This document shows positions 2,862 through 45,997 of a stretch of DNA of 50,026 nt, one piece after another. The stretch's first letter is position 1; every line of letters starts with the position of its first letter. The stretch covers positions 1 through 50,026 of the forward strand of contig JAHDIP010000013.1 in the NCBI GenBank assembly GCA_020630735.1, given 5' to 3'. A program made the translations under genes and the position numbers. Below the pieces are notes generated by a model. The model was given only the letters and a program-made list of their open reading frames with translations. It searched no databases and was not told where the DNA came from. The stretch is from Saprospiraceae bacterium. Lineage in GTDB: Bacteria > Bacteroidota > Bacteroidia > Chitinophagales > Saprospiraceae.

Positions 2862-3590
2862 CTACAGTGATTTTAATAATTTAGTTGCTTTCTCGAATAA
2901 GTTCTTTTCAGTGCTAGTGATTTTCGTTAATAAAGATTTAGCCTTTTCATTATCTCCTTTTTTCAAATAAGTAAGCGCTAAGTACCAAGTACCATATTCT
3001 TTCAATGCGGAATTGGAGTTTTGAATGGCAGAAAAAATAGAACTTGCTTCCTCTAGTTTATCCAACTCCAAGGCGCTAATTCCTAATGCTAATTTTGCTT
3101 TTTGATCATCTGGCTTTTGTTCAATATAAGTGGATAAACTTTTATAAGCTTCCTTATAATTTTTAGTATTAAACTCTTTTTCCGCTTTTGTACCAATGGC
3201 AGCAGTTGTACTTTTTTCGGTCAAAGAAATAGGTTGATGAATCGCATACTGATCGTATAAAGATGTTGCTTCAAATGGGTTCCAAATAATTAAAGCGAGT
3301 GCGATAGCCGCTGCAGCAGCTAAACCTATAAATATTCGATTTCGATAAATAGAAAAAGTAGTTTTCTTTTTTTCTTCTTCAAAAAACTCATCACCCAAAC
3401 GTTCCAAGCTCGATTCTAAGTTTGGTTGATTTCGTTCTTTCTCCAAAAAAATATCCATCCCTTTTCTCAAAGAATATTCTCCAGCAAATTCTTCATCATC
3501 TTTTAAGCGTTGTTTAAAAGAACGAACTTCTTCATTAGATAATTCACCTTGAAGATATCTATCTATAAGTATGTAATCGTTCGAATCCAT
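2862..3590 (-). CDS. Probable membrane anti-sigma factor with periplasmic TPR region
   Basis: 242 aa. The N-terminal ~80 residues are charged and resemble the cytosolic part of Bacteroidota anti-sigma proteins (DRYLQGELSNEEV, then KDDEEF). One transmembrane segment follows (about 86-105, IFIGLAAAAAIALALIIWNPF). The C-terminal ~120 residues are helical and TPR-like (AEKEFNTKNYKEAYKSLSTY, then KAKLALGISALELDKLEEA). The expected topology is N-terminus in the cytoplasm and TPR part in the periplasm. It starts 20 bases after the sigma gene stop on the same strand, the usual sigma/anti-sigma order. No zinc-binding anti-sigma motif (HxxxCxxC) is visible. The anti-sigma role rests on gene order and topology; a TPR membrane protein with another role remains possible. 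Confidence 0.7.
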   Translation of the reverse strand: MDSNDYILIDRYLQGELSNEEVRSFKQRLKDDEEFAGEYSLRKGMDIFLEKERNQPNLESSLERLGDEFFEEEKKKTTFSIYRNRIFIGLAAAAAIALALIIWNPFEATSLYDQYAIHQPISLTEKSTTAAIGTKAEKEFNTKNYKEAYKSLSTYIEQKPDDQKAKLALGISALELDKLEEASSIFSAIQNSNSALKEYGTWYLALTYLKKGDNEKAKSLLTKITSTEKNLFEKATKLLKSL

Positions 3591-3610
3591 ACGGTAAATT
3601 TAATACAACT

Positions 3611-4165
3611 TCACAATTTATATAATGCTCTCCATCGATCTACACAGGCACTTTTTCTTCGATATACAGTATTAGCGTCATTCATTTGTAATGCTACAGC
3701 AATATCTTTAGAAGCGATTCCTTCAGATACTAAACCAAGCAACTTTTGACAAAGTTCGCTTAATTGCTTAAAAGCAATATCCAGTTTTTTTTGACGTATT
3801 TCTTCCTCTTCAACCTGTTCTATCAATGGGGAGATGCTCTCTTCAGTAGTATATCTTTCTTTTTCTACTATTCTTACCTCCGATTCTTTTCTTTTTTTCC
3901 TGATTTGATCAATCCACTTGTTTTTACAAATCTGAAAAATTAATCCTCCAATAGGATAAGTCAAAACAAAATCAGGATCACAAGCTTTATTATAGAGCGC
4001 CAAGAGAGCTTCTTGAAAAACATCTTTAGCATCAGCCATACTACCATTATTGTTCATCACCCATCGGATGACTTGAGCGGAATGGTTAGCATACAATTCT
4101 CTAAGCGTTTCACTATGATTTTCTCTCAAGGCAATCAGATACCGATGATCTTCATGTTGATTCAT
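3611..4165 (-). CDS. ECF-type RNA polymerase sigma-70 factor
   Basis: 184 aa, the normal size for an ECF sigma factor. Region 2 is seen around residues 15-95 (VIRWVMNNNGSMADAKDVFQ, then IFQICKNKWIDQIRKKRKES). After a Glu-rich linker, region 4 occupies about 125-184 (FKQLSELCQKLLGLVSEGIA, then the helix-turn-helix SKDIAVALQMNDANTVYRRK). It should direct RNA polymerase to a dedicated promoter set and be held by the membrane protein encoded directly downstream. The gene is divergent from the S8 protease and CHAT genes, with about 360 bases between. A candidate target motif for this factor is in that gap (4207-4236) and near 12400. The family is clear; the target assignment is inference. Confidence 0.9.
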   Translation of the reverse strand: MNQHEDHRYLIALRENHSETLRELYANHSAQVIRWVMNNNGSMADAKDVFQEALLALYNKACDPDFVLTYPIGGLIFQICKNKWIDQIRKKRKESEVRIVEKERYTTEESISPLIEQVEEEEIRQKKLDIAFKQLSELCQKLLGLVSEGIASKDIAVALQMNDANTVYRRKSACVDRWRALYKL

Positions 4166-4206
4166 GGCAGCAAGATAAGAAATAATTAAAAAAATAATTG
4201 ACCTAT

Positions 4207-4236
4207 GGGTAAGATTTACATAACAGCTGCGATATA
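4207..4236 (+). promoter_or_regulatory. Candidate ECF promoter: GGGTAA - 17 - CGATATA
   Basis: GGGTAAGATTT starts at 4207 and CGATATA lies at 4230-4236, followed by GGAGTAAA. The same two blocks, 16 bases apart, occur on the minus strand at 12415-12387, followed by AGGGTAAA. The spacing fits -35/-10 elements. Here it points toward the protease/CHAT operon, leaving a leader of about 280 bases, but it also sits 42 bases upstream of the sigma gene and could act there in reverse. The rest of the gap (4245-4527) is AT-rich with no ORF, hairpin or TAnnTTTG box that I can see. Confidence 0.5.
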
Positions 4237-4527
4237 GGAGTAAAGTGACTCAAAACAAGTAGTGTAAATTTTATTATAAAATTTTATATAATTAATTATT
4301 TTTTAGTTAAATTGTAGAACACTCCTTTTTTAACAAGCAGATAAAACGCATAAACATATTGTTATAATGGTTTAGCGCATTTGAGTCCCAATCATTAACT
4401 GCTTTGACGATATTTTGATTACAACTTGGTTTCTGATTTCTAGAGAAACAATTCAGTAATAGACAATAATTCGCCCTATTGTTCTAACAGAATATTCGTG
4501 CATTTTTTAAAACTAAAATTACCTAAA

Positions 4528-6687
4528 ATGAAAACGCAACTCTTTATTATCTTATTTTTGCTCTCCTTTTGTTCCACCATACACTGCCAAAATCTTATCA
4601 ATTCTTTTTACTTTGATGCTGGCGAAGAAAGTTGGACTTCTCAAACTATTTCAAATAGTGCTTATTGGGAATGGAAGGGAAATGGTAAAGCAGATTATGG
4701 ACTTTACTGGAATAGTCGAGACTCTATACGTTCCAACTCTCTTGGTGGTGCAATGGTTTATGATGGAGATGGCATTATTTCAAGTGGTATTGGTAATCCA
4801 GATTCCATCTACTTTGCCACTCTTACATCTCCTCCATTAGACTTTTCTTCTGAAAGTTCAGTATTCTTAAAGTTTAATCAATACTATCGGAATTATGAAT
4901 CAACAACACGAGTGCAAGTATCTGTTGACTCAGGAGCCAATTGGAATACCGTATTTAACAATAATAATGTTAAACAAAATATTGAAACCTCATCTGCAGA
5001 TTATCAGGTAATAGATATTAGTATGGAGGCTGGCACAGAGCCCAATGTACTTGTACGATTTCTTTTTGAAGGAGACTATTATTTTTGGATAATAGATGAT
5101 GTTGAATTTTATGATTCTTATCCTTACCCTAGAACATTCCCCTCTTATGTAGGCGATAGTTTATCTACTTTTGGGATACCTTATTCCAAAGATGATGCGG
5201 ACTGGGTTTATGTACCTAACGAGATTGTGATACAATTCAAAGCAGGTACTACTGAAGCCGAAAAACAAGACCTACGTGATACTCTTGGCGCTACTAAAAT
5301 TGATTCTTGCGTATGCAATCAATTAGAGCTTTGGATATTAAACAATAGTATCTTAGGGGGAGATCAAAATCTTTCTCCATATGGGGGTACCATTGATATA
5401 AATGAACGAGTAAAAGGTGCTACTAGTTCATCAACAGTAGATGGCGTTGATCTGAATAAATACAATTATAATGAACTAAAAAATAATCCAACAATTCCTA
5501 ATGATCCTCTAGGTAGTATTCCTTCGGGAATTCAGACAAGTCCTACTGGAGCTACCCTTATAGCAATACTAGATACAGGGATTGATATTGACCACGATAG
5601 TTTAGTTAATTATATCTACCTCAATAATGATCAATTAAACAATAATAGTGATGATGATAGTAATTGCTATCCTGATGATCCTATTGGATGGAATTTTGTA
5701 GACGACAATAATAATCCTGATGATGACCATGGGCATGGAACTCATGTTGCTGGAATCATAAAACAAAATGCTGAACAATATGACAACTGTGATTTCAGAA
5801 TAATACCCTACAAAACACATGACTCATTTGGAGTGTCCAACTTGTTTGATGTAACCTGTGCCACCTATCAAGCATTAAAGGATAATGCTTCTGTCATCAA
5901 TGATAGTTGGGGGTTTTATGGCGACTCGAGTATTATATTGAGTAATGCCCTTGATACTGCGTTTCTTAATAATACCTTAGTTGTAACAGCTTCTGGAAAC
6001 GATACTTTTGATTTAGCAGTTACGCGTCAATATCCTGCTTGTTATGATATTTCCAATGTACTAACAGTAGGTGCTTTAGGCGTAATACCTAATGGAGACC
6101 TCACAGATACCATAAATCTAGCTTTTTCAAATTATGATCCTGTATGTGTAGATATTTTAGCACCTGGAAAAGATATCCTTAGCACGATACCTCCTCTGCC
6201 TCCTGGTAATGCTAATATGGGTAAAAAGTCAGGAACATCTATGGCTGCTCCAGCGGTATCTGCTGCTGCTGCAATAGCCTATTGTGCAGGATATTCGAAT
6301 GCAATTGATGTAAAGAATAATATACTTAACTGTGCAATTAAAAATTCTATTGATTTAGCTGATCAAGTTATGGATGGAAATATTCTAAATCTAGATTTTC
6401 CTTGTCTTACACCTATTGAAGAAGTAAGTCCTCTAAGTCCTTTAGATTTTCTTGCATATCCTAATCCTTTAAATGATTGGTTGTATGTTACTTTGCCTAA
6501 CGACGCAGAGGACATAAGTATTGAGCTGTTTAATATTTCAGGTCAATCGGTATTCCTAAAACATCTAGACAGATGGGGTGCTAATGTTCCTAAGCGTTTC
6601 AACCTTAAAGAGGTACCCTCAGGGATTTATTTTTTAATAATCAAACAAAAGTATTATATTGGGAGTCATAAACTCATTAAGTTTTAA
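4528..6687 (+). CDS. Secreted subtilisin-like (S8) serine protease with T9SS type A sorting domain
   Basis: 719 aa from the ATG at 4528; a GTG at 4498 is in frame but would put ten residues before the signal peptide (MKTQLFIILFLLSFCSTIHC). After a ~170-residue MAM/jelly-roll-like beta region comes an I9-propeptide-like segment (EIVIQFKAGTTEAEKQDLRD), then the S8 domain. The catalytic triad is intact: Asp349 in ILDTGID, His403 in HGHGTHVAGI, Ser571 in GTSMAAP, with the oxyanion Asn in TASGND. The C-terminal ~75 residues are a type A T9SS sorting domain (FLAYPNPLNDWLYV, ending GSHKLIKF), so the enzyme should be carried across the outer membrane and then released or anchored. The CHAT gene starts 11 bases downstream, so the two are probably co-transcribed. 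Substrate unknown. Confidence 0.92.
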   Translation: MKTQLFIILFLLSFCSTIHCQNLINSFYFDAGEESWTSQTISNSAYWEWKGNGKADYGLYWNSRDSIRSNSLGGAMVYDGDGIISSGIGNPDSIYFATLTSPPLDFSSESSVFLKFNQYYRNYESTTRVQVSVDSGANWNTVFNNNNVKQNIETSSADYQVIDISMEAGTEPNVLVRFLFEGDYYFWIIDDVEFYDSYPYPRTFPSYVGDSLSTFGIPYSKDDADWVYVPNEIVIQFKAGTTEAEKQDLRDTLGATKIDSCVCNQLELWILNNSILGGDQNLSPYGGTIDINERVKGATSSSTVDGVDLNKYNYNELKNNPTIPNDPLGSIPSGIQTSPTGATLIAILDTGIDIDHDSLVNYIYLNNDQLNNNSDDDSNCYPDDPIGWNFVDDNNNPDDDHGHGTHVAGIIKQNAEQYDNCDFRIIPYKTHDSFGVSNLFDVTCATYQALKDNASVINDSWGFYGDSSIILSNALDTAFLNNTLVVTASGNDTFDLAVTRQYPACYDISNVLTVGALGVIPNGDLTDTINLAFSNYDPVCVDILAPGKDILSTIPPLPPGNANMGKKSGTSMAAPAVSAAAAIAYCAGYSNAIDVKNNILNCAIKNSIDLADQVMDGNILNLDFPCLTPIEEVSPLSPLDFLAYPNPLNDWLYVTLPNDAEDISIELFNISGQSVFLKHLDRWGANVPKRFNLKEVPSGIYFLIIKQKYYIGSHKLIKF

Positions 6688-6698
6688 TACTCCTCTAA

Positions 6699-9464
6699 AT
6701 GAAAAACAATAAAAAAACAATAGGGATACTGATATGCATGTCAGTATCCTTTTTTTTATGGGCAGACTGTACACAAAACTTAAATATAACTTCTGTTTTA
6801 AAAACTAATAATGCTTCTGTTATAAAAGGCATCGCTAGGCAACTAAAACAATGTCCAAATAAAAAAAATTCTTTGGCAGACTGTTATCACAAATTAGGCA
6901 TCATTTATTATCATTACGAATCTAACATAGATTCCGCTATTTCATTTACCAATAAAGCACTCCTTATTCGCCAAGATCTTTACAAAGATAGCCTTGGTAT
7001 ATCCTTAGGAAAGTCTTATAATAACTTGGGTGTATTTTATGGCAAAAAAAATCTAAATAAACTCGCCAAAACACATTTTAAAAAAGCTATAGAAGTCTAT
7101 CGAACGTTGGATATTCCTTCTCGACTTGGTCGATGCTATAATGATTTGGGCATTATTCATCTGAATGAAGGTGAATACGAATTAGCAAGCAATCTTTTCA
7201 ATTATGCCATACTTGAAGCAAAAGAAATCAACGATGATCATATTTTTTCAAAGGCCTTATTGAATCTTGGAAATATTGCTAATGAAAAAAAAGATTTTCA
7301 TAAAGCTATTGATTATCTACAAAAAGCAGAACGCATTTTATCGGAATATAACTCTATAGATGAAGCTGTTTGTTACACTAACCTTGGAGTAGCTTATTAT
7401 CGTTTGAAAGACTATGACAAAGCAATAAATTATTATCAAAAAGGCATCAAGATTTATGAAGCATTAGACATTTGCAATGAGACAGCTAAAGCTTTTAATA
7501 ATTTGGGAATTGTTTATCAAAAAAACCAGCAATTACAAAAGGCGTTTAATGCTTTTCAAGAAGGAATAAAAATTGCAAAATCTTGTTCTTCTTCAGAAAT
7601 GATCGCTCAAAGCTTTGATCATCTGGGCGAATATTATCTAACAAAAAAGGAGCATCAAAAAGCTTTGGCTGCTTTCCAAAAAGCTATTCTAACATTAATT
7701 CCTTCGTTTACACCTGAAAATGATTTACAAAACCCTTCCGAAACAACACTAGAATTTGTCTCTTTCAAAATGGACTTGCTAACTTATTTTTCTGATAAGG
7801 CAAGAGTCCTCAAAGAAATAACTGCCAAAACCAACACTACTTCAAATCAATCAACTATAATAGAGCTTTATTATTTAGGAGATCAATTGATTGACCAAAT
7901 CAGGAAGGAGCACAAAGACGAAGACACTAAATTGTTTTGGAGAAAAGATGTACTCCCTTTTTATGAAGAAGCCATTGAAGTTTGCCACAAAACGAATCAA
8001 ATAGACAAGGCTTTTTTCTTTTTTGAAAAGAGTAAAGCCATTCTTCTATTAGAAGCCATGCAATCATCTGATGCATTAGCCATCGTTCCTGATAGTATTC
8101 AGCAAAAGATTATTTACTTGCAAAAAGCATTAATGCAAAATAAAAATAAGTTGTCTGATACTGATAAATCAACACAAGAAAATATTCACAAAGAGTTACT
8201 TAGTTTACAAGATCGTATTGATAAAACCTTAGATAATATCGAGCAAGCTTATCCGAAATATTTTCAAGTAAAATACAACTTAACCATCCCTACTTTAGCT
8301 GATTTTCAAAACACTTTTTTGAAAAACAACGGACAAACTGCCATTCATTATTTTTATGGTAACAAACACATTTATGCTTTTACAAGCAATCAGACTAAAT
8401 CAGCTATTTACAATTTAGGTGAAACAAAAGAGATCGAAAACGAAATTAGAACACTTCTCTCCTACTACCAAAAATCTTCTAGTATAGAAAATGCTCCTAA
8501 AGTTTTTTTGGCACAATCCAAAAAAGTATACGATCTTTTAATTAAACCTCTACCACTCGAAAATGCAACTGAATTAATTCTTTTTCCAGATGGTGCTTTG
8601 GCTTATTTACCATTTGAAGCATTAACAACATCAGAAGCAGATGATCTTAGCTCGGCTACTTATTTATTACAACAATTTAATGTCCGATATAGTTACTCGG
8701 CAACTATTTTGGCTAAACAACAAGAAGCTGATCAACAACAAACGAATACAGGTATTCTTGCCTTTGCTCCCTTTGCAAAAGCATCTTCAGATTATAAGTA
8801 TCCTACATTAAATTTCAGTACTGATGAACTGGGTCAAATCAGTGAAAAAATAGATGGTATTTTTCTTTTAAACGAAAAAGCAAGCAAAGACTATTTCATC
8901 AACAATCAAGATCAATTTTCTGTCATACATCTTTCTACGCATGCCTTTTCTTCTCCGACTGAACGCTCCCCTCATATCGTTTTTGCAGACACTGCTTTAT
9001 ACTTATCGGAGTTGTATAGTATGGATATTGATGCAAATTTGGTTGTACTAAGTGCTTGCCAAACGAATATCGGGAAGCTCTATCCAGGCGAAGGTGTTAT
9101 GAGTTTGGGGAGAGGTTTCACTTATGCAGGCACAAAGAGTTTAATCTCTAGTCTATGGAATGTAAATGCAACATCTACCTCTTTAATTTTATCTAACTTT
9201 TATGATAATCTACAAAATAATTTCTCGAAACATACCGCTTTGCATCAAGCAAAAAAAGCGTATTTAGAAAACGAAAACATACCTTCTTATGAACGTTCTC
9301 CTTATTATTGGGCAGGAATGGTTTACTATGGGAATGATGAACAACTTGTTTTGAATAATAAGATAAAAAATTCATTTTCCGTGAAACTACTATTGTGTAT
9401 TTCTTTATTATTTGCAGCCTTATTTTTTGTAAAAAAAACAAAATCATTTGCTTTCAAAGGCTAA
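6699..9464 (+). CDS. TPR-CHAT protein with signal peptide and C-terminal membrane anchor
   Basis: 921 aa. An N-terminal hydrophobic stretch looks like a signal peptide (MKNNKKTIGILICMSVSFFL, residues 1-22). At least seven TPR units of about 40 residues follow (about 60-340; e.g. YNDLGIIHLNEGEYELASNL, ALLNLGNIANEKKDFHKAID), then a helical linker, then a caspase-like CHAT domain (about 560-885). The CHAT His-Cys pair is present: His748 in LSTHAF and Cys787 in VLSACQTN. The usual late motifs are also present (GFTYAGTKSLISSLW, SPYYWAGMVYYG). A transmembrane helix near 895-912 precedes a short basic tail. The predicted layout is therefore a periplasmic TPR-CHAT peptidase tethered to the inner membrane, facing the same side as the TPR part of the anti-sigma protein. 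Other CHAT proteins act as activated proteases in conflict or cell-death systems; its role here is inferred. Confidence 0.88.
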   Translation: MKNNKKTIGILICMSVSFFLWADCTQNLNITSVLKTNNASVIKGIARQLKQCPNKKNSLADCYHKLGIIYYHYESNIDSAISFTNKALLIRQDLYKDSLGISLGKSYNNLGVFYGKKNLNKLAKTHFKKAIEVYRTLDIPSRLGRCYNDLGIIHLNEGEYELASNLFNYAILEAKEINDDHIFSKALLNLGNIANEKKDFHKAIDYLQKAERILSEYNSIDEAVCYTNLGVAYYRLKDYDKAINYYQKGIKIYEALDICNETAKAFNNLGIVYQKNQQLQKAFNAFQEGIKIAKSCSSSEMIAQSFDHLGEYYLTKKEHQKALAAFQKAILTLIPSFTPENDLQNPSETTLEFVSFKMDLLTYFSDKARVLKEITAKTNTTSNQSTIIELYYLGDQLIDQIRKEHKDEDTKLFWRKDVLPFYEEAIEVCHKTNQIDKAFFFFEKSKAILLLEAMQSSDALAIVPDSIQQKIIYLQKALMQNKNKLSDTDKSTQENIHKELLSLQDRIDKTLDNIEQAYPKYFQVKYNLTIPTLADFQNTFLKNNGQTAIHYFYGNKHIYAFTSNQTKSAIYNLGETKEIENEIRTLLSYYQKSSSIENAPKVFLAQSKKVYDLLIKPLPLENATELILFPDGALAYLPFEALTTSEADDLSSATYLLQQFNVRYSYSATILAKQQEADQQQTNTGILAFAPFAKASSDYKYPTLNFSTDELGQISEKIDGIFLLNEKASKDYFINNQDQFSVIHLSTHAFSSPTERSPHIVFADTALYLSELYSMDIDANLVVLSACQTNIGKLYPGEGVMSLGRGFTYAGTKSLISSLWNVNATSTSLILSNFYDNLQNNFSKHTALHQAKKAYLENENIPSYERSPYYWAGMVYYGNDEQLVLNNKIKNSFSVKLLLCISLLFAALFFVKKTKSFAFKG

Positions 9465-9693: not shown

Positions 9694-10809
9694 TTAATCT
9701 GTTTTCACAAATTTATGTGTTTTTACTTCTCCATTTGTAAATGTCAAATGAACAAAATACATTCCTTCAACAAGCGATTTCACATCTAATTGTAAGGTAC
9801 TTGAAGTAGCTTGCACTTCTTTAATTTGCTTACCATCTAAACTTGTAATACTTAAGCGTTCTACATCATTTCCGAAAAGTTCTATAGTCAATATATCTTT
9901 TACAGGATTTGGAAAAATGTTGATCGCTTGAGCATCTGTATTTAATCGTGCAATAGGTTCTTCACTTTCAAAGGACTGATCTAAAATAATAAACTGATCT
10001 TTAGCATTCCAGTTCGTCCATCCTAATGGGCACTTTGCTTTTAGTTTGTATTTATAAACTACATTTAGAGTCAAATTATTTAAGGTCACCGATGCCGCAT
10101 TTATAGTCATTTCAATCCAATCATTACCAACCGTTTTGTACTTTATTTTGTATTTCGTAGCCGAAGGTATTGGTGCCCATGTTAAGGTAGCAGAATTTGC
10201 CATAGTCGTAACCGTTCCTGCACTCGGAATATCACACAAATTATTAGGTGTCGTAAAAGCATTTAAGGCAGACCAAACTGCATTCAGATTTGTACAAACG
10301 GTTTTGACATTAAACTCATATTTGGTTGCAGGTTGTAAGCCATCTAAGAACCGAACATTTGCAGGTGCATTTACTTCTGTCCAAGGGTTACCTGATCCTT
10401 GAATACGATAGCGCACTTTGTACTTCGTTGCTTCTGGTACAGCCACCCATTCTAGCTTTACTATTTTTCCACCTAGTGGGGTAGCTTTTATATTAAGCGG
10501 CACATCACAAACATCAGCTGTACAATCTTCTATCTTAGCCAATAAGGTAGCATTTTCATTTACGGTTAAACCATTCATCAATAAAATACCTTCACCCGAT
10601 TTCATGACAACCGTCGAACCACCTTGAATGGCATTGGAAGCTTCGATCTCTTGGGTCGTTTGGTAATTGGCATCTGTTTCTTGTAGATCATCGTCAGGCG
10701 AAACTAGTATGATCAGCTCTTCCTGACATTCTCCTGTTTGTGCCATCCCCATAAAAGGGACAGATAATAGCAGGAGAAAATTTAGAATTATATTATACTT
10801 TTTCATCAT
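9694..10809 (-). CDS. Secreted protein with two fibronectin III domains and T9SS type A sorting domain
   Basis: 371 aa. The signal peptide covers about residues 1-23 (MMKKYNIILNFLLLLSVPFM). A short N-terminal beta region follows (QGGSTVVMKSGEGILLMNGL, the style often seen before FN3 domains in Bacteroidota surface proteins). Two FN3 domains follow, near 102-190 (VKLEWVAVPEATKYKVRYRI, LQPATKYEFNVKTVC) and 192-275 (ATLTWAPIPSATKYKIKYKT). The C-terminal ~80 residues are a type A sorting domain (NIFPNPVKDILTIEL, GMYFVHLTF, ending KFVKTD). It begins 45 bases after the stop of the upstream gene on the same strand, so the two form an operon ending at the terminator near 9627-9665. No enzymatic domain; a matrix or adhesion role is inferred. 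Confidence 0.85.
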   Translation of the reverse strand: MMKKYNIILNFLLLLSVPFMGMAQTGECQEELIILVSPDDDLQETDANYQTTQEIEASNAIQGGSTVVMKSGEGILLMNGLTVNENATLLAKIEDCTADVCDVPLNIKATPLGGKIVKLEWVAVPEATKYKVRYRIQGSGNPWTEVNAPANVRFLDGLQPATKYEFNVKTVCTNLNAVWSALNAFTTPNNLCDIPSAGTVTTMANSATLTWAPIPSATKYKIKYKTVGNDWIEMTINAASVTLNNLTLNVVYKYKLKAKCPLGWTNWNAKDQFIILDQSFESEEPIARLNTDAQAINIFPNPVKDILTIELFGNDVERLSITSLDGKQIKEVQATSSTLQLDVKSLVEGMYFVHLTFTNGEVKTHKFVKTD

Positions 10810-10854: not shown

Positions 10855-12294
10855 TTATTTACCTTGAATTAACTTACTTTTCAATTCAGCATTTTCTGCT
10901 TTCAAGGATTTTACTTCTTTATTAAGCTCAATAAGATGTAAGTATATTTCTTCTATTTTCTCTTGTTGGTTACGCGTCATTTCGCCCAATTCAATTCCGC
11001 CAGCTTCTTCGATAGTAACTGCTGAAGGTGTATTGTGTAAGTGTCCTTTTTCTTGAATATGCGTTTCCACTTCTTCTAAAGAAGTCAGTGTATAATCTTC
11101 TTCAAAAACATAATCGCACCAAGCCGTATTATTGATAAATAATTCTTTACCTAAAATACCTCCATCAACAATTAGACGATAAGTAGTTGTCGTTGGAATA
11201 ATAGCAGGAGCTAAGTTAGAACAACCAATACCTACTCTATCCGTTACGTTTACATCTCCTACAAAATAACCAGCCCATTGACCATTGAATAAAGCAGATG
11301 GAGAAGTTATAGCATCTGTACTACCAAAGACTGCAGCACCTCTATTCGAGCCTGTCAAATTTCCATAAACAGCATAATTAATATCTGCATTTCCGGCAAT
11401 ACCTGATACACCATATGCTCTACCATCCGAAGAAGGCGTAGCTGTAGTAGCACTACCTCGTACACCATATGCATAACCATAACCCGATTCAGTCACACCT
11501 TGTACACCTGTAGAGCTTCCTCCAAAATTAGTAGGTATAGCAGACTCACCTAATACTGCTGCATTTCCACTAGTAGTTCCATCTGTATAAGCATAAACTG
11601 TATGTATACTATTTCCATCTCCATTGACACTTAGAAGCGATTGAGGATTGGTAGTCGCAATACCAACGTTTTGACTAAAATGTCCTCGTCCATCAAAGTG
11701 ACCAGCCCAAGTATCTGTTCCTTTAATTTCATCAACACCTACTACAGCCGACACGACTCCATTGGTTGGATAGTTTGTAATGTTTCCTCTTAACGAACTA
11801 TAAGAACCTGCTATCGTATAAGTACCTGTTGTAGGATTGACTAAAGGATCAAGAATATTAACTGAAAAACTTCCTCCTATTGCTGATGAAGCGGTTGTAT
11901 TATCGAAGACATTTAATAAACTAATACTATCGGCTTGTCCTACTACTCCATAAAAACCACTACCTGCATTGTATTTAGAAAGGTAACTTAAAGATCCTCT
12001 TGTAAGACCAATACCAGTTGCTGGACCACCGCCACCATCGGCAGTACTTGTTGCTGTAACAGCTGTTGAGTTACCGTAGTCTACATTTTGGCTATTTACT
12101 TCTAATTCATTCCATGCATTTAGTGTATTTCGAGTGAGGTTACTATTATCTATAATGATGTTATTGTCAACGCCTGTCTGATTTAAAACACCTGAAGTAG
12201 CATTAGGTACTTGGATTTGTGCTTGTGTAAAATTTATTGCACCAATTGTTAATAAACAAAGAAAAAGAGCTTTAAGACTTTTTGAAAAATTCAT
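10855..12294 (-). CDS. Secreted TMF/tail-fibre-like protein with C-terminal coiled coil
   Basis: 479 aa with signal peptide (about 1-25, SLKALFLCLLTIGAINFTQA). The long central part is Gly/Ser/Ala-rich with repeated pieces such as AVLGES, GVQGVTESG, YGVRGSATT, YAVYGNLTG and AAVFGST, as in trimeric fibre or 'TMF family' proteins of Bacteroidota. The C-terminal ~105 residues hold a conserved block (CDYVFEEDYTLTSLEEVETH, GHLHNTPSA, GIELGEM) followed by a heptad coiled coil (IEEIYLHLIELNKEVKSLKA). I see no T9SS sorting domain, so export beyond the periplasm is not explained. It is first in a two-gene operon with the FN3 protein. A promoter-like motif matching the one beside the sigma gene lies about 95 bases upstream. 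Confidence 0.75.
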   Translation of the reverse strand: MNFSKSLKALFLCLLTIGAINFTQAQIQVPNATSGVLNQTGVDNNIIIDNSNLTRNTLNAWNELEVNSQNVDYGNSTAVTATSTADGGGGPATGIGLTRGSLSYLSKYNAGSGFYGVVGQADSISLLNVFDNTTASSAIGGSFSVNILDPLVNPTTGTYTIAGSYSSLRGNITNYPTNGVVSAVVGVDEIKGTDTWAGHFDGRGHFSQNVGIATTNPQSLLSVNGDGNSIHTVYAYTDGTTSGNAAVLGESAIPTNFGGSSTGVQGVTESGYGYAYGVRGSATTATPSSDGRAYGVSGIAGNADINYAVYGNLTGSNRGAAVFGSTDAITSPSALFNGQWAGYFVGDVNVTDRVGIGCSNLAPAIIPTTTTYRLIVDGGILGKELFINNTAWCDYVFEEDYTLTSLEEVETHIQEKGHLHNTPSAVTIEEAGGIELGEMTRNQQEKIEEIYLHLIELNKEVKSLKAENAELKSKLIQGK

Positions 12295-12386: not shown

Positions 12387-12415
12387 TATATCGGAGTGAA
12401 ATAAAAATCTTACCC
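12387..12415 (-). promoter_or_regulatory. Candidate ECF promoter for the TMF/FN3 operon
   Basis: On the minus strand GGGTAAGATTT (12415-12405) is followed after a 16-base spacer by CGATATA (12393-12387) and then AGGGTAAA. It matches the 4207-4236 motif in both blocks and nearly in spacing. It points toward the gene starting at 12294, giving a leader of about 85 bases. Just downstream is ACATAACAG; the same nine bases appear inside the spacer of the other copy, which suggests overlapping half-sites. Confidence 0.5.
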
Positions 12416-39682: not shown

Positions 39683-42600
39683 TTACTTGATCAGTAACAT
39701 TTTCTTCGTTGCAGTATCATTTGCCGTGTCTAACTGGTAGTATAATATACCAGCAGATGGCAAGTCTTCTTTCTGAATTGTTAATTCATTGTATCCTTTA
39801 GCAAAATCGCCATTGTATTGCTTCAATACTTTACCAGACATATCAATGATTGATAACGTAGCTGAACCAGCTTCAACTAAATTGAAACTTACAACAGTTG
39901 ATTGCTTAAATGGATTTGGTGCATTTTGGTACAACTCAAACTGAGCAGCAGCAACTTGACCATTGAATGCTAAAGCAACATCCAATACATCTGCATCAGC
40001 ATTGTATGCTTCAGCAGTTGTGTAGCTAGAGTTTACAGTCAAGGCTTCACTTAAGGTTACATCAGCTAACGCTCTAAACGTAAGACTAAATGTAGACTTA
40101 GTAGCAGTTGTATTGTTCCAACTTGTAGTAATTACACCTCTATCAAGTAATGACAATCCTACATTTTCAGTATTAGAAGCATTAACAAACTCTAAGTTCT
40201 TGCCAAATGCTAATGTGAACTGATAACCTAAAATTGCATCTTCTGAAGTAAATTCAATGGTATATTCTTCGCCAGCTTTCAATTGCTTGTCAGCCGCATT
40301 GAATACTAATTGACCTACTGTCGTACGCTCATTGATTCCTAATATAGAGTTAGGGATCGCTGTATCGTTTACGTCACCAATCTTCACACCAACGAAGTTA
40401 GCTTCTAATTCATCTTGAGATAAATCATTGATAGAAATAACTTCTGGGAATGTAGTAGCAAATGGATTTGCAGGGTTTGCAAATACAAAGTTTTTATCTA
40501 CAAATCTCCATGATGTATTACTTGGGAAGTCTGTATTAATGTGTAAGATTAATTTACGTAACTCTACCATATCTAAAGCAGTGATAGAACCTGATTTGTT
40601 TACATCAGCAGCAATCATTTTGTATGGAGAACCTAAAGCTTGAACTCCTAAGATATGTTTGCTCATTAATACAAGGTCATAAGTTGTCACACCGTTTAAG
40701 TGGTTGATGTCCTTCTCAGGAGTAACCGTATAGTTATTATGCATTGGTACATTAGTAAAGTCGTAGTTGCCATCAATACCTGTTACGAAAGGAGTAAATC
40801 CGTTTGCACCAGCTATTTCAACATTTACATCTTCGACTTCTTCGTCACCTTCATTGGTAACAGTACCAGCAATACGTGCCATTTCTGCACCACCACAAAC
40901 ACCATTAGGATCTTGCACTACTACATAAGTACGACAGTGATCCCAGTTATTGCTTAAGTCACCAACCCAAAGGTCAACCCACTGTGTTCCTAATTCGTCA
41001 CAACCAAATGTAACTGAAGTAGAGTTTGCAGAAGGTACATTATTATTAGGTGCATCAAACTGTCCAACTTTTCTTATTCTGAAACGTAAGTCTTCGTAAT
41101 CATCGCAGTTATCAAAAGAAGAACCTGCTTCGAAATCTGAAGCCCAAATTTCGATCTCACCTGTTGAAGGCATTACTGAAGTAGAAATGACTTGGCAAAC
41201 AGGAGTAGGTAATTTACAGTCAACAATTTCGAATAAGTATGTACACTCAGAAGTATTTCCACAACCATCCGTTGCGTAGAATGTGATACTGTGCTCACCC
41301 ATTGGGTAATCACCAGAAGCATCATTTCCAGAACCTTGGATATCGGCAGTACCATCATTGAATGCATCAATTTCGTAGTAGTAAGTCATGTTGTCACCGC
41401 TACAGTTATCTTCTGCTTCAGCAGTTAACTCGATGTAACCAGGACCACAATCTTCAGCATAGCTACAACCTGGATCAGGAGATTCACAAGATGTAAATAC
41501 AGGCGCTTCGTTATCTGTAACTTTAATTACTTGGTTAAATTCCCAACGTCCGTTTCCGTTGTTGCTGTTAGGAACATATTGACACCAGTCAACGATTACC
41601 CAAGTACGTACAATCTTAAAGCAGTAAGGATCATCAATTGGTAAGTATAAATCTTCGTGTCCGATAAATACATTATCACAGTTATCCAGGTCAACAGTAG
41701 GACCAGGAACAGAATCAGCATCAATACCTTGAGCACAATCACGCTCTACTTCTTCTTGTGGCCAGTTGATGTCACTTTCATCAAATGGATCGAAGTTTTG
41801 AACTCTAATACGTTGTACACAAGAAGCAGTTAAACCACTAGGGTCAGTAGCTGTAAATACACGTGTAATTAGACCAGCTCCACATTCATCAACATTTGAG
41901 TTTGAGTTTTCAGTAATGGTCAAATCACAGTTATCGTAAGCTAGTCCGTCTAATCCCCAGTTTGTAGTACCTAATCCATCAGGATCAACAGTTATTACAT
42001 CACCTTGATCAGCAGGATTTGTTACAACAGTACCAAATGTAGCAGCTAAATCATCTGCATCAAATTCGAAGTGGCAACTAATGGTAATGTCTGGAGGACA
42101 AGTCATCGTTGGAGCCAATTTGTCTTCAACTGTTGCTTCAACCATACAGTCGTTATAACGTCCGTAAAGATCACCACCTTCTTCGTGACGGCTATCCGCT
42201 ACAGGTCCTTCACCTGGATCAACATCATAAACTCTGAAGATGATCATGTGAGGACTAGGATCGATATCTGCACAACAGAAATCAGCATAGTCATCGAAAT
42301 ATTCTTGGTAACCAGCTAATGCATCATCATCATCACCATTATAATTTTCGCAAGCACCTGTTACCATTCTTCTAACTTTGAAGTAAACACTTCCACAGTT
42401 ATCGTAAGAACCATCATCAAATGTTTCAGCGAAAACTCTTCCGTATCCTTCAGAACCTACAGAAACATCTGTGTGCTCATCGCAAATTGCTAATGGCTCT
42501 ACTTGATCTTCAACCGTAATATCGTAAGAGCAAGAACGCTCATTTCCACATTCGTCAGAAGCAGTTACTTCAATCGTATGAGTACCTAATGGTAAACCAG

Positions 42601-45600
42601 TAACTGTGTAGTTACCTCCAGATTGAGAAACAGTACCGTCTGTTGAAGTAACAGATACGATAGAAGGTGTAGAACAGTTATCATTTAATTCTGGTAAAGG
42701 TAATGTAAGAGATGCATCACAAGAGTAGTAACCAGTACTTACTGTGAAATCATCTGGACAAGATAAAGTCGGAGCAGTAGTATCTAATACTTTGATGATT
42801 TGGTTGTGACGAATTACTTCGTTTGTACACCAGTCAATCAATACCCACTCTCTTAAAATTTTGTATGAACCTGGGCAAATATCTACTTCTTGGTCAGTAT
42901 ATGTCATACCAATTTGGCAAGTTTCTCCATCAATATTGTTACCATCTAATTGTGGGTAGCCAGTTGAAGAAGGATTAGTATTTGCGTTAGAACAGTTTAG
43001 TGCATTTGCGTCAACATTGTCTCTGTTAGGTGGGAAAACGATAGTAGAAAGGTCTGGTCTTTCAACCAAAATAGTTTGCTCACAAGTGCTTGAGTTACCC
43101 CAAGTATCTGTAGCCGTCCAAGTACGAGTAATGATGATAAAGCTATCGTCATTAGCACAACCTGGCTCATCAATATCGTCTTCATATTCTAGTTCGTAAT
43201 CGCCACAATTTTCATCAACACTTGGGAAACCAATTTCCTCAGGTGTAAGATCGTCTGCAAGTGTACAGCTAACTGTAATTTCAGGACAATCTAAAATTGG
43301 AGCCATTTTATCTTCTAATGTAATTGTCCCCCAACAAGTATCATCCGTATCAGGATCGGTGATCGAAACAATTAATGTTTGACCATAGTATGCACTTGTT
43401 ATTAATGGACTTGTAGGAATCGTTGTTGTATTAGGGTGTGTACCTTCTTGTACATCGATGATATAATCATCGTAGCAACCATAAGGACCACCTTCTAAAA
43501 TGATATCAGCTGTTACTAAGAACGAACAGTTTTCATCTACAGAAATATTTAAGTGGTCATTGCAAACTATATTTCCTGCAACGCCAGCAAATTCTATAAT
43601 TGTAATATTAAAAGAACAAGATCCTGTATTACCACCATTATCCGTTACTTCGTAAGAAACAGTGTAATCTCCATATCCTAATGTTTCACCAGAAGTAGGA
43701 CCAGCAGTTTGAACAACTGTAAAATCACAGTTATCAGAAGCAACAGGATCAGCGAAGATTACTTCAGCATCACAAGCTCCAGCAGCAAGATTAATAACAA
43801 TATCATCTTGACAAGTAATAGTTGGTAAAATATTATCTTCGATAGTTACTACAGCAATACAGTTCTCTACATTACCGTCTACATCTGTAACCGTTAATGT
43901 AACATCATTAGCTCCTACATTTGTACAATCAAATGCAGTTGGAGTAGCAGTGATACTTGCAATACCACACTCATCAGAACTACCATTATCAATATCAGCA
44001 GCTGTAATAGCCGCTTGACCAGCAGCGTCCAATTCTATTGTAAGGTTAGCACAAACTACATCTGGAGCAATCACATCTTCTACTGTTACAATTGTAGAAT
44101 TACAAGTAGATACATTACCATTAACATCTGTTACAGTAAGTATAACTACATTATCTCCTAAGTTTGAACAATCAAATGAAGTTGGAGTGATAGAAAGAGA
44201 TGCGATTCCACATTCATCAGAACTACCATTGTCAATATCAGCAGCAGTTATAGTTACAGCACCTAAAATATCTAATTCTACTGTAATATCTTGAGTAGCA
44301 CAAACTGGAGGAGTAACATCTACACCACCTCCTACTACAGCTACATCAGCAACAGTACAAGTGAAGTTGTTTACTTCTTCTACTACAACATTGTAAGAAC
44401 CATTCATTAAAGCACTAAATACATTTGATGATTGGAATGTAGCACCACCATCAATAGAGTATTGGAATGGAGCCATTCCGCCAACTGCATCAATAGTAAT
44501 AGAACCATCTAATGAACCTGGGCAACCTTCATCGCCAATAGTTAAAGTAACGCCTGTTAAATCACAAACACAAGCCTCAGAAGCACAATCAGCAGCAACG
44601 TTATAAGCAAGAGGTCCATAACAACCTGCACCTTGTGGGTCAGCTTGTGTATATGTACCAGTTAAAGGTTCAGAGTTAGTCGTTGTACCAGCAACAGGTG
44701 TACAAGCAGGTATAGCAGGTACATTTCCTGTAATCGTTTCGCATACAGTACCATCAGCAGCAGTTACTTCTACAGATGCAGCAGCACCACATCCACCTGG
44801 AATTTCAGTTAAAGTGAAAGGAGCTGGGTTAATCACTACATCATAACGTAATACTTCACATGTAGGCTCATATTCAGAGTTTAAATCTCCATCCGTGTCA
44901 AGACTCCAGTTAAAAACAGCTAAGAAATAAGTTACTGTAAAAGGAGCACAAGTTTCATTAATGAAACCAGCAGCAGTAGGTGGAGCACCACAAAGAAAAT
45001 CAAATCCTTGAACTAATAAATTAGGATCTTTTACATCAATAGATTCAGGAAATCCACCTCCAGCAGTGTGTGTAGGAGAAGAAACATCAATAGTTGTTTC
45101 GTAACCAGCAGGAGCTTCACCAGCTGCACCAGCAGGAGCATATACGAATAAATCAACAACGATACCACCATCTTGAGTAGCAGGACCATCAATACCAGAA
45201 CATGTTGGTCCAGCAGTCCAGTTTATAGCACCACCACTACATGCAGAAGCAGGCGCACTAAAGTCTGCAGTAACAGTACACATTGGCGCGAATTCACAAG
45301 CACCACTATCGATATTTGCAGTAGGATCATAGTTGGTAGCTGCAGGATCTGTACAACCACATACAGCAGCAGTTGGCGTATTCAAACTAATGTTTGCTGC
45401 AGAACCTGCATCCATTCCTGCATGGTCTGTGATACAAATCTGCATCGTGACATCACCAGGAGGGCAAGCAGCACAAAGATCGGCAAAGGTGTTGATACCT
45501 GCAGTTTGGATACCACAATCATCAGTTGATGTTACGCCATAAGCACCACCTGTACCAGCGATTCCATTTTCTGGATCAGCAGTATTGGCGTCATCAAAAT

Positions 45601-45997
45601 CAACATTTACTAATGCGATATTTGGTGGTGTACCTATGTCATCAGCAAGACCAAAACCAGCACCAAATAAACCGCCATCATCAGCACCACATTCTGTAGT
45701 ACCAGGACGTTGCATAACATTTAGTGTATTACCACAAGCATTAACGACAAGACTTAAATCGCCCTGATAGTCGTGTGCAAGGTCCATATTGATACCAGTA
45801 GCACAGCCGAGTATGGCAGGGTCGTAGGTTAGCTGAACGCAATAGGCGTTAGCTGTGTTGCCATCAACTGGAAACCCGTTGTCGGGCAAGTCGATAGCAG
45901 CAGTAGTACATTGTGCTGATAGTTGTGTAGTGGAGAACAGCGTGAGCGCTCCCATTACAAACAATAGCACAACACTTTTTAAAGTACAAATTTTCAT
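39683..45997 (-). CDS. Giant HYR-type adhesin, paralogue of adhesin 1, T9SS type A
   Basis: 2104 aa. Signal peptide about 1-28 (VVLLFVMGALTLFSTTQLSA). An N-terminal beta region resembles a P-domain-like jelly roll (MDLAHDYQGDLSLVVNACGN, ending MQICITDHAGMDAGSAANIS). A Cys/Asn motif GCTDPAATNYDPTANIDSGA follows. One ~309-residue unit (about 248-556) matches the tandem units of the third paralogue (CSGGAINWTAG, INPAPFTLTE, GSITIDAVGGMAPFQYSIDG). Two HYR-like repeats (SSDECGIASL, SSDECGIASI) and further HYR and Cys-rich modules match adhesin 1 in order (YFKVRRM, YGRYNDCMVE, WVIVDWCQY, FRIRKVGQFDAPNN). The C-terminal cassette has EF-hand loops near 1765-1805 (DVNKSGSITALD), SWRFVDKNFVF, FVGVKIGDV, a cohesin-like domain and the sorting domain from about 2023 (FELYQNAPNPF, ending KKMLLIK). 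Surface adhesin by inference. Confidence 0.88.
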   Translation of the reverse strand: MKICTLKSVVLLFVMGALTLFSTTQLSAQCTTAAIDLPDNGFPVDGNTANAYCVQLTYDPAILGCATGINMDLAHDYQGDLSLVVNACGNTLNVMQRPGTTECGADDGGLFGAGFGLADDIGTPPNIALVNVDFDDANTADPENGIAGTGGAYGVTSTDDCGIQTAGINTFADLCAACPPGDVTMQICITDHAGMDAGSAANISLNTPTAAVCGCTDPAATNYDPTANIDSGACEFAPMCTVTADFSAPASACSGGAINWTAGPTCSGIDGPATQDGGIVVDLFVYAPAGAAGEAPAGYETTIDVSSPTHTAGGGFPESIDVKDPNLLVQGFDFLCGAPPTAAGFINETCAPFTVTYFLAVFNWSLDTDGDLNSEYEPTCEVLRYDVVINPAPFTLTEIPGGCGAAASVEVTAADGTVCETITGNVPAIPACTPVAGTTTNSEPLTGTYTQADPQGAGCYGPLAYNVAADCASEACVCDLTGVTLTIGDEGCPGSLDGSITIDAVGGMAPFQYSIDGGATFQSSNVFSALMNGSYNVVVEEVNNFTCTVADVAVVGGGVDVTPPVCATQDITVELDILGAVTITAADIDNGSSDECGIASLSITPTSFDCSNLGDNVVILTVTDVNGNVSTCNSTIVTVEDVIAPDVVCANLTIELDAAGQAAITAADIDNGSSDECGIASITATPTAFDCTNVGANDVTLTVTDVDGNVENCIAVVTIEDNILPTITCQDDIVINLAAGACDAEVIFADPVASDNCDFTVVQTAGPTSGETLGYGDYTVSYEVTDNGGNTGSCSFNITIIEFAGVAGNIVCNDHLNISVDENCSFLVTADIILEGGPYGCYDDYIIDVQEGTHPNTTTIPTSPLITSAYYGQTLIVSITDPDTDDTCWGTITLEDKMAPILDCPEITVSCTLADDLTPEEIGFPSVDENCGDYELEYEDDIDEPGCANDDSFIIITRTWTATDTWGNSSTCEQTILVERPDLSTIVFPPNRDNVDANALNCSNANTNPSSTGYPQLDGNNIDGETCQIGMTYTDQEVDICPGSYKILREWVLIDWCTNEVIRHNQIIKVLDTTAPTLSCPDDFTVSTGYYSCDASLTLPLPELNDNCSTPSIVSVTSTDGTVSQSGGNYTVTGLPLGTHTIEVTASDECGNERSCSYDITVEDQVEPLAICDEHTDVSVGSEGYGRVFAETFDDGSYDNCGSVYFKVRRMVTGACENYNGDDDDALAGYQEYFDDYADFCCADIDPSPHMIIFRVYDVDPGEGPVADSRHEEGGDLYGRYNDCMVEATVEDKLAPTMTCPPDITISCHFEFDADDLAATFGTVVTNPADQGDVITVDPDGLGTTNWGLDGLAYDNCDLTITENSNSNVDECGAGLITRVFTATDPSGLTASCVQRIRVQNFDPFDESDINWPQEEVERDCAQGIDADSVPGPTVDLDNCDNVFIGHEDLYLPIDDPYCFKIVRTWVIVDWCQYVPNSNNGNGRWEFNQVIKVTDNEAPVFTSCESPDPGCSYAEDCGPGYIELTAEAEDNCSGDNMTYYYEIDAFNDGTADIQGSGNDASGDYPMGEHSITFYATDGCGNTSECTYLFEIVDCKLPTPVCQVISTSVMPSTGEIEIWASDFEAGSSFDNCDDYEDLRFRIRKVGQFDAPNNNVPSANSTSVTFGCDELGTQWVDLWVGDLSNNWDHCRTYVVVQDPNGVCGGAEMARIAGTVTNEGDEEVEDVNVEIAGANGFTPFVTGIDGNYDFTNVPMHNNYTVTPEKDINHLNGVTTYDLVLMSKHILGVQALGSPYKMIAADVNKSGSITALDMVELRKLILHINTDFPSNTSWRFVDKNFVFANPANPFATTFPEVISINDLSQDELEANFVGVKIGDVNDTAIPNSILGINERTTVGQLVFNAADKQLKAGEEYTIEFTSEDAILGYQFTLAFGKNLEFVNASNTENVGLSLLDRGVITTSWNNTTATKSTFSLTFRALADVTLSEALTVNSSYTTAEAYNADADVLDVALAFNGQVAAAQFELYQNAPNPFKQSTVVSFNLVEAGSATLSIIDMSGKVLKQYNGDFAKGYNELTIQKEDLPSAGILYYQLDTANDTATKKMLLIK

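Follow-up and report, generated by a model that had tools for sequence, protein, structure and literature searches.

What could bring a sigma factor, a membrane protein, a subtilisin-like protease and a caspase-like protein together at one bacterial locus? The question is raised by a gene set at positions 2862-9464 of a 50,026-nucleotide (nt) stretch of DNA from a Saprospiraceae bacterium (contig JAHDIP010000013.1), which was analysed as a whole and is called here the window. An earlier note on this DNA had read the set as an extracytoplasmic function (ECF) sigma factor and a single-pass membrane protein, divergent from an S8 protease and a TPR-CHAT protein, and had proposed that the CHAT peptidase senses a signal in the periplasm and cuts either the anti-sigma protein or the S8 zymogen. 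In our analysis, the sigma, anti-sigma and CHAT genes very probably form one functional unit, and the set is probably an undescribed signalling switch, kin to the signalling branch of a CRISPR defence system.

All four open reading frames (ORFs) are intact, and the ORF calls together with Pfam and NCBIfam bear out the families that had been named (Table 1). The sigma gene lies 20 base pairs (bp) upstream of the anti-sigma gene; in its product Pfam recognises region 2 only, and the TIGR02937 match spans residues 20-171 of 184. The S8 protein is laid out as a zymogen, with a signal peptide, an N-terminal region, a prodomain-like segment, a catalytic domain with the intact triad D359/H413/S581, and the type A tail of the type IX secretion system (T9SS), as had been stated. 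A Fervidolysin_NPro-like prodomain gives a sub-threshold match in this protein (0.0019). Its frame opens with a GTG; judged by eye, translation more likely starts at codon 11, an in-frame ATG (nt 4528). The CHAT dyad consists of H748 and C787, the two residues named before, which are confirmed.

The genome of the window holds 17 CHAT, 20 S8 and 65 ECF matches, and because CHAT and ECF genes are so numerous, a chance neighbourhood had to be tested. Five genomes provided a less biased comparison than loci picked by score, under the assumption of uniform placement and, in four of them, with 150 of the 158 to 223 anti-sigma candidates scored. An anti-sigma match lies within 6 kilobases (kb) of the CHAT gene in 45 of 94 cases, where 2.6 were expected (binomial P 5e-44), and each genome contributes 7 to 13 such CHAT genes. 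Viewed from the other side, 46 of the 75 anti-sigma matches (77 rows minus two second fragments of listed frames) have a CHAT gene within the same distance. The sigma gene stands directly upstream, on the same strand, of 89 of the 95 anti-sigma proteins in the loci studied.

Two sets of loci, numbered here with the prefix L, extend this picture. The first comprises 15 contigs of the window's own genome with other CHATs and 60 stretches that surround high-scoring CHATs in relatives, the latter picked by score and not randomly; the family profiles were built from these same loci. Among its 83 CHAT proteins, a family sigma occurs within 5 kb of 42 and an anti-sigma of 43, and 12 have an S8 gene immediately upstream in the same orientation. 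The second set, from a CHAT-profile scan of named genomes, holds the best 80 of at least 560 confirmed matches, from Saprospiraceae, Flavobacteriaceae, Cytophagales, Chitinophaga and unclassified Bacteroidota; five of these loci appear to overlap the first set. All four families are found in 26 of the 80, a sigma within 6 kb in 51, and an S8 gene upstream of CHAT, within three ORFs and on the same strand, in 41. Another 19 have sigma, anti-sigma and CHAT with no S8 in the three upstream ORFs (L137 is doubtful), and 15 have S8 but no sigma/anti-sigma pair, several of them at contig ends. The co-location that the earlier note asked for in Bacteroidota is thus real. Complete sets include those of Aquimarina amphilecti (L148), Kordia zhangzhouensis (L141), Tenacibaculum agarivorans (L186) and Chitinophaga solisilvae (L201). 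Among the listed matches, the window CHAT is most similar to those of L123 and L124 (52% identity), both with S8 directly upstream; L124 holds all four families and L123 begins at a contig end.

The linkage is kept despite a varying gene order. Of the four-family loci, 20 share the arrangement of the window, with the sigma pair upstream and on the other strand (e.g., L124, with two genes in between, L131, L139 and L174); in four the pair lies beyond CHAT (L133, L138, L163, L185), and in two it is on the same strand as the other genes (L143 and the C. solisilvae locus L201). Across the 42 linked CHATs, 17 are convergent with the sigma pair and share no promoter region with it. The plasmid pEMTOL03 of Emticicia oligotrophica (L261, 15958-22501) carries anti-sigma and sigma genes divergent from three other genes and a CHAT gene; its anti-sigma, recorded as a hypothetical protein, matches the anti-sigma profile at 9e-30. 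This plasmid cassette adjoins a recombinase and a Fic protein. Some loci are more elaborate: two sigma/anti-sigma pairs flank CHAT in L072 and L081, a second anti-sigma lies on the other side of CHAT in L202, and a paralogous cassette of the window's own genome (L029:937-2043) has two sigma-like ORFs (224 and 134 amino acids, aa) ahead of S8.

The partners also diverge in step. In 36 cassettes from the genome of the window and its relatives (64 within-genome pairs), the distances between partners correlate at 0.74 for sigma and anti-sigma, 0.65 for sigma and CHAT, and 0.80 for anti-sigma and CHAT, and for each of the three none of 2000 permutations reached as high a value. The cassette partners travel together.

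Where would these proteins meet? The AlphaFold2 model of the anti-sigma-like protein (mean predicted local distance difference test score, pLDDT, 87.4) shows four N-terminal helices followed by a transmembrane helix at 83-103, in keeping with the single strongly hydrophobic segment that starts at residue 86 (membrane span about residues 83-104) and with the C-terminal TPR half already reported. A membrane segment is present in 87 of 95 anti-sigmas, with positive charge on its N-terminal side (mean +2.7 before, -1.05 after). In the window CHAT an N-terminal hydrophobic segment is matched by a C-terminal helix (891-920) in which the hydrophobic part gives way to lysines; both ends are hydrophobic in 125 of the 151 unique CHATs that reach 850 aa, vs 59 of 719 control ORFs. 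Moreover, in 36 aligned CHATs the predicted signal-peptidase +1 column is Gln in 33, Asn in two and Asp in the window protein. A Gln after the cut corresponds to the Bacteroidetes Q-rule for signal peptidase I, as given in the accessible text of PMC5837995. The Gln column, the hydrophobic ends and the charge bias therefore lead us to predict, from hydropathy and charge, that the anti-sigma domain is cytoplasmic with its TPRs in the periplasm, and that CHAT is an exported protein attached to the inner membrane by its C-terminus. As far as prediction goes, the proposed periplasmic position of both TPR regions is supported, and the CHAT signal peptide looks real rather than that of a protein left in the cytoplasm.

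We call the 242-aa protein anti-sigma-like on account of its architecture and adjacency: an N-terminal helical domain, one transmembrane segment, an N-terminus predicted inside and a sigma gene next door. Its binding and inhibition of sigma are putative. No curated anti-sigma model of Pfam or NCBIfam reaches its cut-off on this protein, and a Foldseek search with the model gave no match under E 0.001; the best matches were TPR folds (0.0057), so the N-terminal domain draws no structural support from a known anti-sigma.

The CHAT protein, in turn, has clear structural relatives. Its model (pLDDT 87.6, predicted template modelling score 0.82) matches Csx29 of the Craspase complex (Foldseek 6.9e-15; Z 29.0 over 614 residues, root-mean-square deviation, rmsd, 8.7), the separases (5fby_A, Z 26.0, 315 residues, rmsd 3.4) and DdvA (8rw5, Z 22.0, 593 residues, model 69-878 on chain 292-991), the last with an rmsd of 12.9 which indicates that the domain arrangement differs. 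When a CHAT-domain profile was run against the PDB, DdvA came first (E 0.0013), with His and Cys kept, followed by the Craspase TPR-CHAT (E 0.013); the single CHAT-domain sequence found no credible relative there, and the profile alone retrieved DdvA. The catalytic residues are conserved: of 83 CHATs, 79 keep the His and 80 the Cys, with gaps in the others except for one Phe in a truncated copy, and both residues are present in 36 of 36 in a second alignment. Likewise, the S8 triad columns of relatives hold D, H, S or gaps and no substitutions, the gaps sitting in partial segments and at the Ser of L201.

A recurrent promoter-like motif may tie the sigma factors to the other half of the cassette. 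Since 5-mer dyads were swamped by A/T runs, single k-mers were used in this search. In 49 divergent intergenic regions, GGTAAC points toward S8/CHAT in 29 (3.6 expected) and toward sigma in 8 (1.3 expected), and GGGTAAC toward S8/CHAT in 19 (0.9 expected). GAAC-like boxes follow about 15 bases beyond GGTAAC, and such sites lie 28-147 bp before the genes in the S8 position. The motif is also found ahead of anti-sigma in L152, L177 and L189, and ahead of the gene behind CHAT in L158, L165 and L168. We infer that the cassette's own sigma reads these sites. The divergent intergenic region of the window contains no GGTAAC; it shares with that of L124 the pattern GGTAAG-N15/16-CGATA, and because the pattern was drawn from these two regions, the site at 4208 is no independent match. 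The window contains three copies (0.02 expected), two of them intergenic and the third at 41640, inside the ORF 39683-45997. The second intergenic copy precedes an ORF on the minus strand (10855-12294), a possible further target of the window sigma. This ORF encodes 479 aa with a signal-peptide-like start and is followed by a T9SS fn3 protein (9694-10809). A genome-wide regulon built on the motif was tried and rejected for weak enrichment, and several of the flavobacterial matches, judged by eye, lie inside sigma genes.

Table 1. Features of the gene set and its candidate promoter sites in the window (residue numbers refer to the 184-, 242-, 729- and 921-aa ORFs for sigma, anti-sigma, S8 and CHAT)
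Feature	Position (nt)	Strand	Description
Membrane anti-sigma-like protein	2862-3590	-	242 aa; TPR_19 1e-08 (Pfam); NCBIfam antisigma weak, 0.0041
ECF-type sigma factor	3611-4165	-	184 aa; TIGR02937 6.9e-16 (residues 20-171), Sigma70_r2 1.7e-06
Candidate ECF promoter GGTAAG-N16-CGATA	4208-4234	+	Divergent intergenic region, 264 bp before the S8 GTG
S8 (subtilisin-like) zymogen	4498-6687	+	729 aa from GTG; PF00082 6.2e-36; PF18962 (Por_Secre_tail) 1.4e-09
S8 prodomain-like segment	5212-5340 (residues 239-281)	+	CxC and ELW; resembles small lipoproteins of some S8-less cassettes
TPR-CHAT protein	6699-9464	+	921 aa; PF12770 3.6e-53; TPRs; signal peptide; C-terminal transmembrane segment; H748 (8940-8942), C787 (9057-9059)
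Second intergenic pattern copy, GGTAAGATTT..CGATA	12389-12414	-	95 bp upstream of ORF 10855-12294(-)

The most variable member of the cassette is the one in the S8 position, referred to below as the slot. Several Saprospiraceae S8 proteins carry T9SS-type tails and most of those in Flavobacteriaceae read as lipoproteins; a simple rule classes 37 of 76 slot genes as lipoprotein-like and finds a T9SS-like tail in another 12. Flavobacterial cassettes that lack S8 often have small lipoproteins in the slot, further cassettes fill it with unrelated secreted or T9SS proteins, and the Emticicia slot genes gave no S8 or prodomain match. The segment that precedes the S8 catalytic domain follows the pattern NQ-x-VV ... 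K..LR ... CxC ... ELW, where CxC was itself the selection criterion (44 of 55 upstream regions, 43 unique). When the prodomain profile was run against 1989 non-S8 proteins, both copies of a split S8 ranked first (L063, L127), followed by the slot lipoproteins L187 (E 1.2e-4) and L165 (5.9e-3). A six-member slot family has five members in the top 15 and the sixth (L183) outside, with unrelated proteins among the weaker ranks. Eleven slot proteins, namely this family plus five added by hand, aligned with the prodomain in a profile-profile comparison (hhalign probability 95.2, E 2.4e-08, 41 columns). Because of this ranking and this match, the S8 prodomain seems to recur without its protease in some S8-less cassettes. 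A surface-export signal was also sought in the slot lipoproteins, where acidic residues after the lipid cysteine were not enriched (2.16 vs 1.80, p 0.12).

Some further features of the slot and its surroundings may be recorded here. The split S8 comprises two ORFs (405 and 457 aa; L063:5032-7682, L127:7011-9661), the first with the prodomain-like segment; the gene may be broken or naturally split, and L063 and L127 probably represent one contig. The slot lipoproteins of flavobacterial cassettes carry several cysteines. Behind CHAT, and with the sigma-type motif, there is a VKOR-thioredoxin gene in L165 (12458-14077) and L170 (17565-19169), a link to disulphide formation; the gene behind CHAT in L168 (12569-12946) is a shorter relative of the one in L165.

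How could such a set work? That CHAT controls the anti-sigma is the best reading, given the DdvA fusion and the Craspase precedent, and the promoter motif ahead of the S8/CHAT operon suggests that sigma may drive S8 and CHAT. With its cytoplasmic domain the anti-sigma would keep the ECF sigma at the inner membrane, and with its TPR domain it would meet the membrane-anchored CHAT in the periplasm. CHAT would be activated by a cue from the periplasm or the surface, for which the S8 or prodomain protein may be the reader, and would then clip or displace the periplasmic part of the anti-sigma. General proteases of the RseP type would complete its breakdown (the genome of the window encodes one M50 protease of this type), and the freed sigma would transcribe the S8-CHAT operon and its neighbours in a positive feedback loop. 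The cleavage event, its substrate, the cue, the pairing of sigma with motif and the order of the steps are what we infer, and for the chain as a whole, from CHAT-controlled release of sigma to feedback on S8-CHAT, we see the chances as evenly balanced. Several points weigh against it. The cutting of the anti-sigma by CHAT is drawn by analogy with Craspase and DdvA, and for the latter the likeness in sequence is marginal (E 0.0013), the structural match is loose (the rmsd given above) and the signal is unknown according to the accessible text of PMC4374960. Block duplication of linked genes could by itself yield the co-diversification. No such anti-sigma lies near 49 of the 94 CHATs, and no CHAT near 29 of the 75 anti-sigmas, which contig ends may explain in part. 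Genome-wide, the window pattern is not clearly enriched in its own genome (13 sites vs 8 for a control pattern), and the motif is weak in five flavobacterial genomes (36 sites vs 18 for the reversed pattern; 2 vs 3 and 3 vs 3 in two of them). Finally, the promoter motif fits S8 and CHAT as mere outputs equally well as it fits feedback.

This last point leads to the strongest competitor, which we consider possible yet clearly the less probable account: the sigma pair would sense an envelope cue alone and induce two envelope proteases, which would degrade foreign or damaged proteins, or those of the cell's own envelope. The ECF-like motif toward S8/CHAT, also at 28-147 bp before the slot genes, agrees with it, as do the secretion or lipoprotein signals of S8 and the anti-sigmas without CHAT; for 15 of those 29 the fetched stretches were inspected and no CHAT was seen in them, while sigma adjoins the anti-sigma in 13 and does not in L215 and L216. 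It fits less well with DdvA, where anti-sigma and TPR-CHAT form one chain, with the action of Csx29 on a sigma inhibitor (accessible text of PMC10028731), with the predicted anchoring of CHAT in the same membrane as the anti-sigma, and with the 17 convergent CHATs, where no promoter region is shared. A somewhat more doubtful proposal makes the slot protein the substrate of CHAT, so that clipping of the prodomain, or of a prodomain-like lipoprotein, would render S8 active or release a fragment that binds the anti-sigma TPRs. The S8 genes close upstream of CHAT in both locus sets (41 of 80 and 12 of 83) and the prodomain-like lipoproteins of some S8-less cassettes speak for it; many cassettes, on the other hand, lack S8 and show no recognisable prodomain in its position, and subtilases usually process themselves. 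S8 as an obligate substrate, in particular, is unlikely because of the 19 loci where the other three families do without it. It is improbable that CHAT does not cut at all, its TPR array binding the anti-sigma as a co-receptor and its caspase-like fold serving as a conformational relay: TPRs are indeed present on both proteins, but His and Cys are kept in nearly all members. Chance, or a purely local neighbourhood without shared function, retains almost no probability, since the abundance of CHAT and ECF genes that might have favoured it is outweighed by the linkage, and the set is seen in Flavobacteriaceae, Saprospiraceae, Chitinophaga and Cytophagales loci alike.

If the preferred reading of CHAT control over the anti-sigma is correct, caspase-fold proteases control transcription from outside the cytoplasm in one of the large bacterial phyla, and the sigma arm of Craspase has a membrane-bound counterpart outside CRISPR, open to study in cultured strains. 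That a genome holds so many paralogous cassettes, and that the slot gene is exchangeable, suggests that varied external cues are recognised, with the prodomain-like lipoproteins as a concrete candidate for the thing sensed. We venture, as a conjecture more apt to fail than to hold, that membrane-anchored caspase-like switches in the periplasm form a family spread through the whole phylum Bacteroidota. A genome would carry many of them, each with a sigma/anti-sigma pair of its own and an interchangeable “bait”, a surface protein or lipoprotein in which the subtilase prodomain is the recurring part; the RNA-guided Craspase would then be a cytoplasmic offshoot of this older sigma-control module, captured by CRISPR.

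Is the set already known under another name? Above noise, PADLOC gave only generic TPR and subtilase matches on the window, plus weak ones, so that it is not marked as a catalogued defence system, and the idea of a known anti-phage system was set aside. A CRISPR link was likewise rejected for the genome of the window (95.96% complete), where the RAMP family PF03787 has no match; a control search was positive in 4 of 14. Among papers that join a CHAT domain with a sigma factor, those on Craspase alone are to the point as judged by title and abstract, no paper on CHAT domains in Saprospiraceae appeared in the searched literature, and broader searches did not find such a cassette among the matches listed; subscription papers and preprints are mostly outside this coverage, and the papers on the DdvA structure could hold a description. 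The claim that no described system has this gene set and topology stands, within the literature searched, for the combination, and falls for the core of TPR-CHAT, inhibitor and ECF sigma, which is known from Craspase, the DdvA fusion and, in part, ECF54.

Known site-1 proteases of anti-sigma factors include, to our knowledge, no CHAT protein. The set resembles the regulated proteolysis of the RseA/RsiW type in its one-span anti-sigma with an outside domain, and differs from it in that this domain is made of TPRs. Similar in gene content are the neighbourhoods of ECF54 sigma factors (model sigma from Geodermatophilus), with CHAT and subtilase genes, no anti-sigma and a proposed proteolytic control, according to the accessible text of PMC8999054; compared by this group description, our loci differ in having an anti-sigma-like gene. 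The EACC2/caspase loci likewise combine a caspase-type domain with an ECF sigma and a TPR protein (DUF1822), and activation by proteolysis has been proposed for them, but their domains are EACC2, TRADD-N and DUF1822, and the accessible main text of PMC8195603 does not mention CHAT.

Two further systems share the TPR-CHAT component itself. DdvA of Myxococcus xanthus controls a CRISPR-Cas system, and its CHAT region is periplasmic. It is titled a transmembrane anti-sigma factor in the PDB (8ROT, 8RW5), so that the ECF sigma, the transmembrane anti-sigma and the TPR-CHAT region with its His and Cys all have counterparts here. DdvS, the ECF sigma with which it is paired, is active once DdvA has been inactivated (accessible text of PMC4374960). 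DdvA, however, is a single chain, whereas anti-sigma and CHAT are separate in our loci and are joined by a variable secreted or lipoprotein partner; none of 168 CHATs of these Bacteroidota loci carries an anti-sigma domain, and a fused form was thus discarded for them. In Craspase, of the type III-E CRISPR systems, Csx29 cleaves Csx30, an inhibitor of the ECF factor CASP-sigma, whose motifs are found in its own locus (accessible text of PMC10028731). The window set shares with it a TPR-CHAT protein with the His/Cys dyad and the same overall CHAT fold, an ECF sigma, an inhibitor-like gene and sigma-type motifs in its own locus. Craspase is RNA-guided and cytoplasmic; here the CHAT protein is predicted to be exported and membrane anchored, the genome lacks a match to the Cas7-11-type RAMP family, and the inhibitor-like protein is a TPR protein with one membrane span, accompanied by an extra S8/prodomain gene. 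By analogy, the set can be read as a membrane-bound form of the switch made of TPR-CHAT, inhibitor and sigma that Craspase contains, to which a positive feedback would be added.

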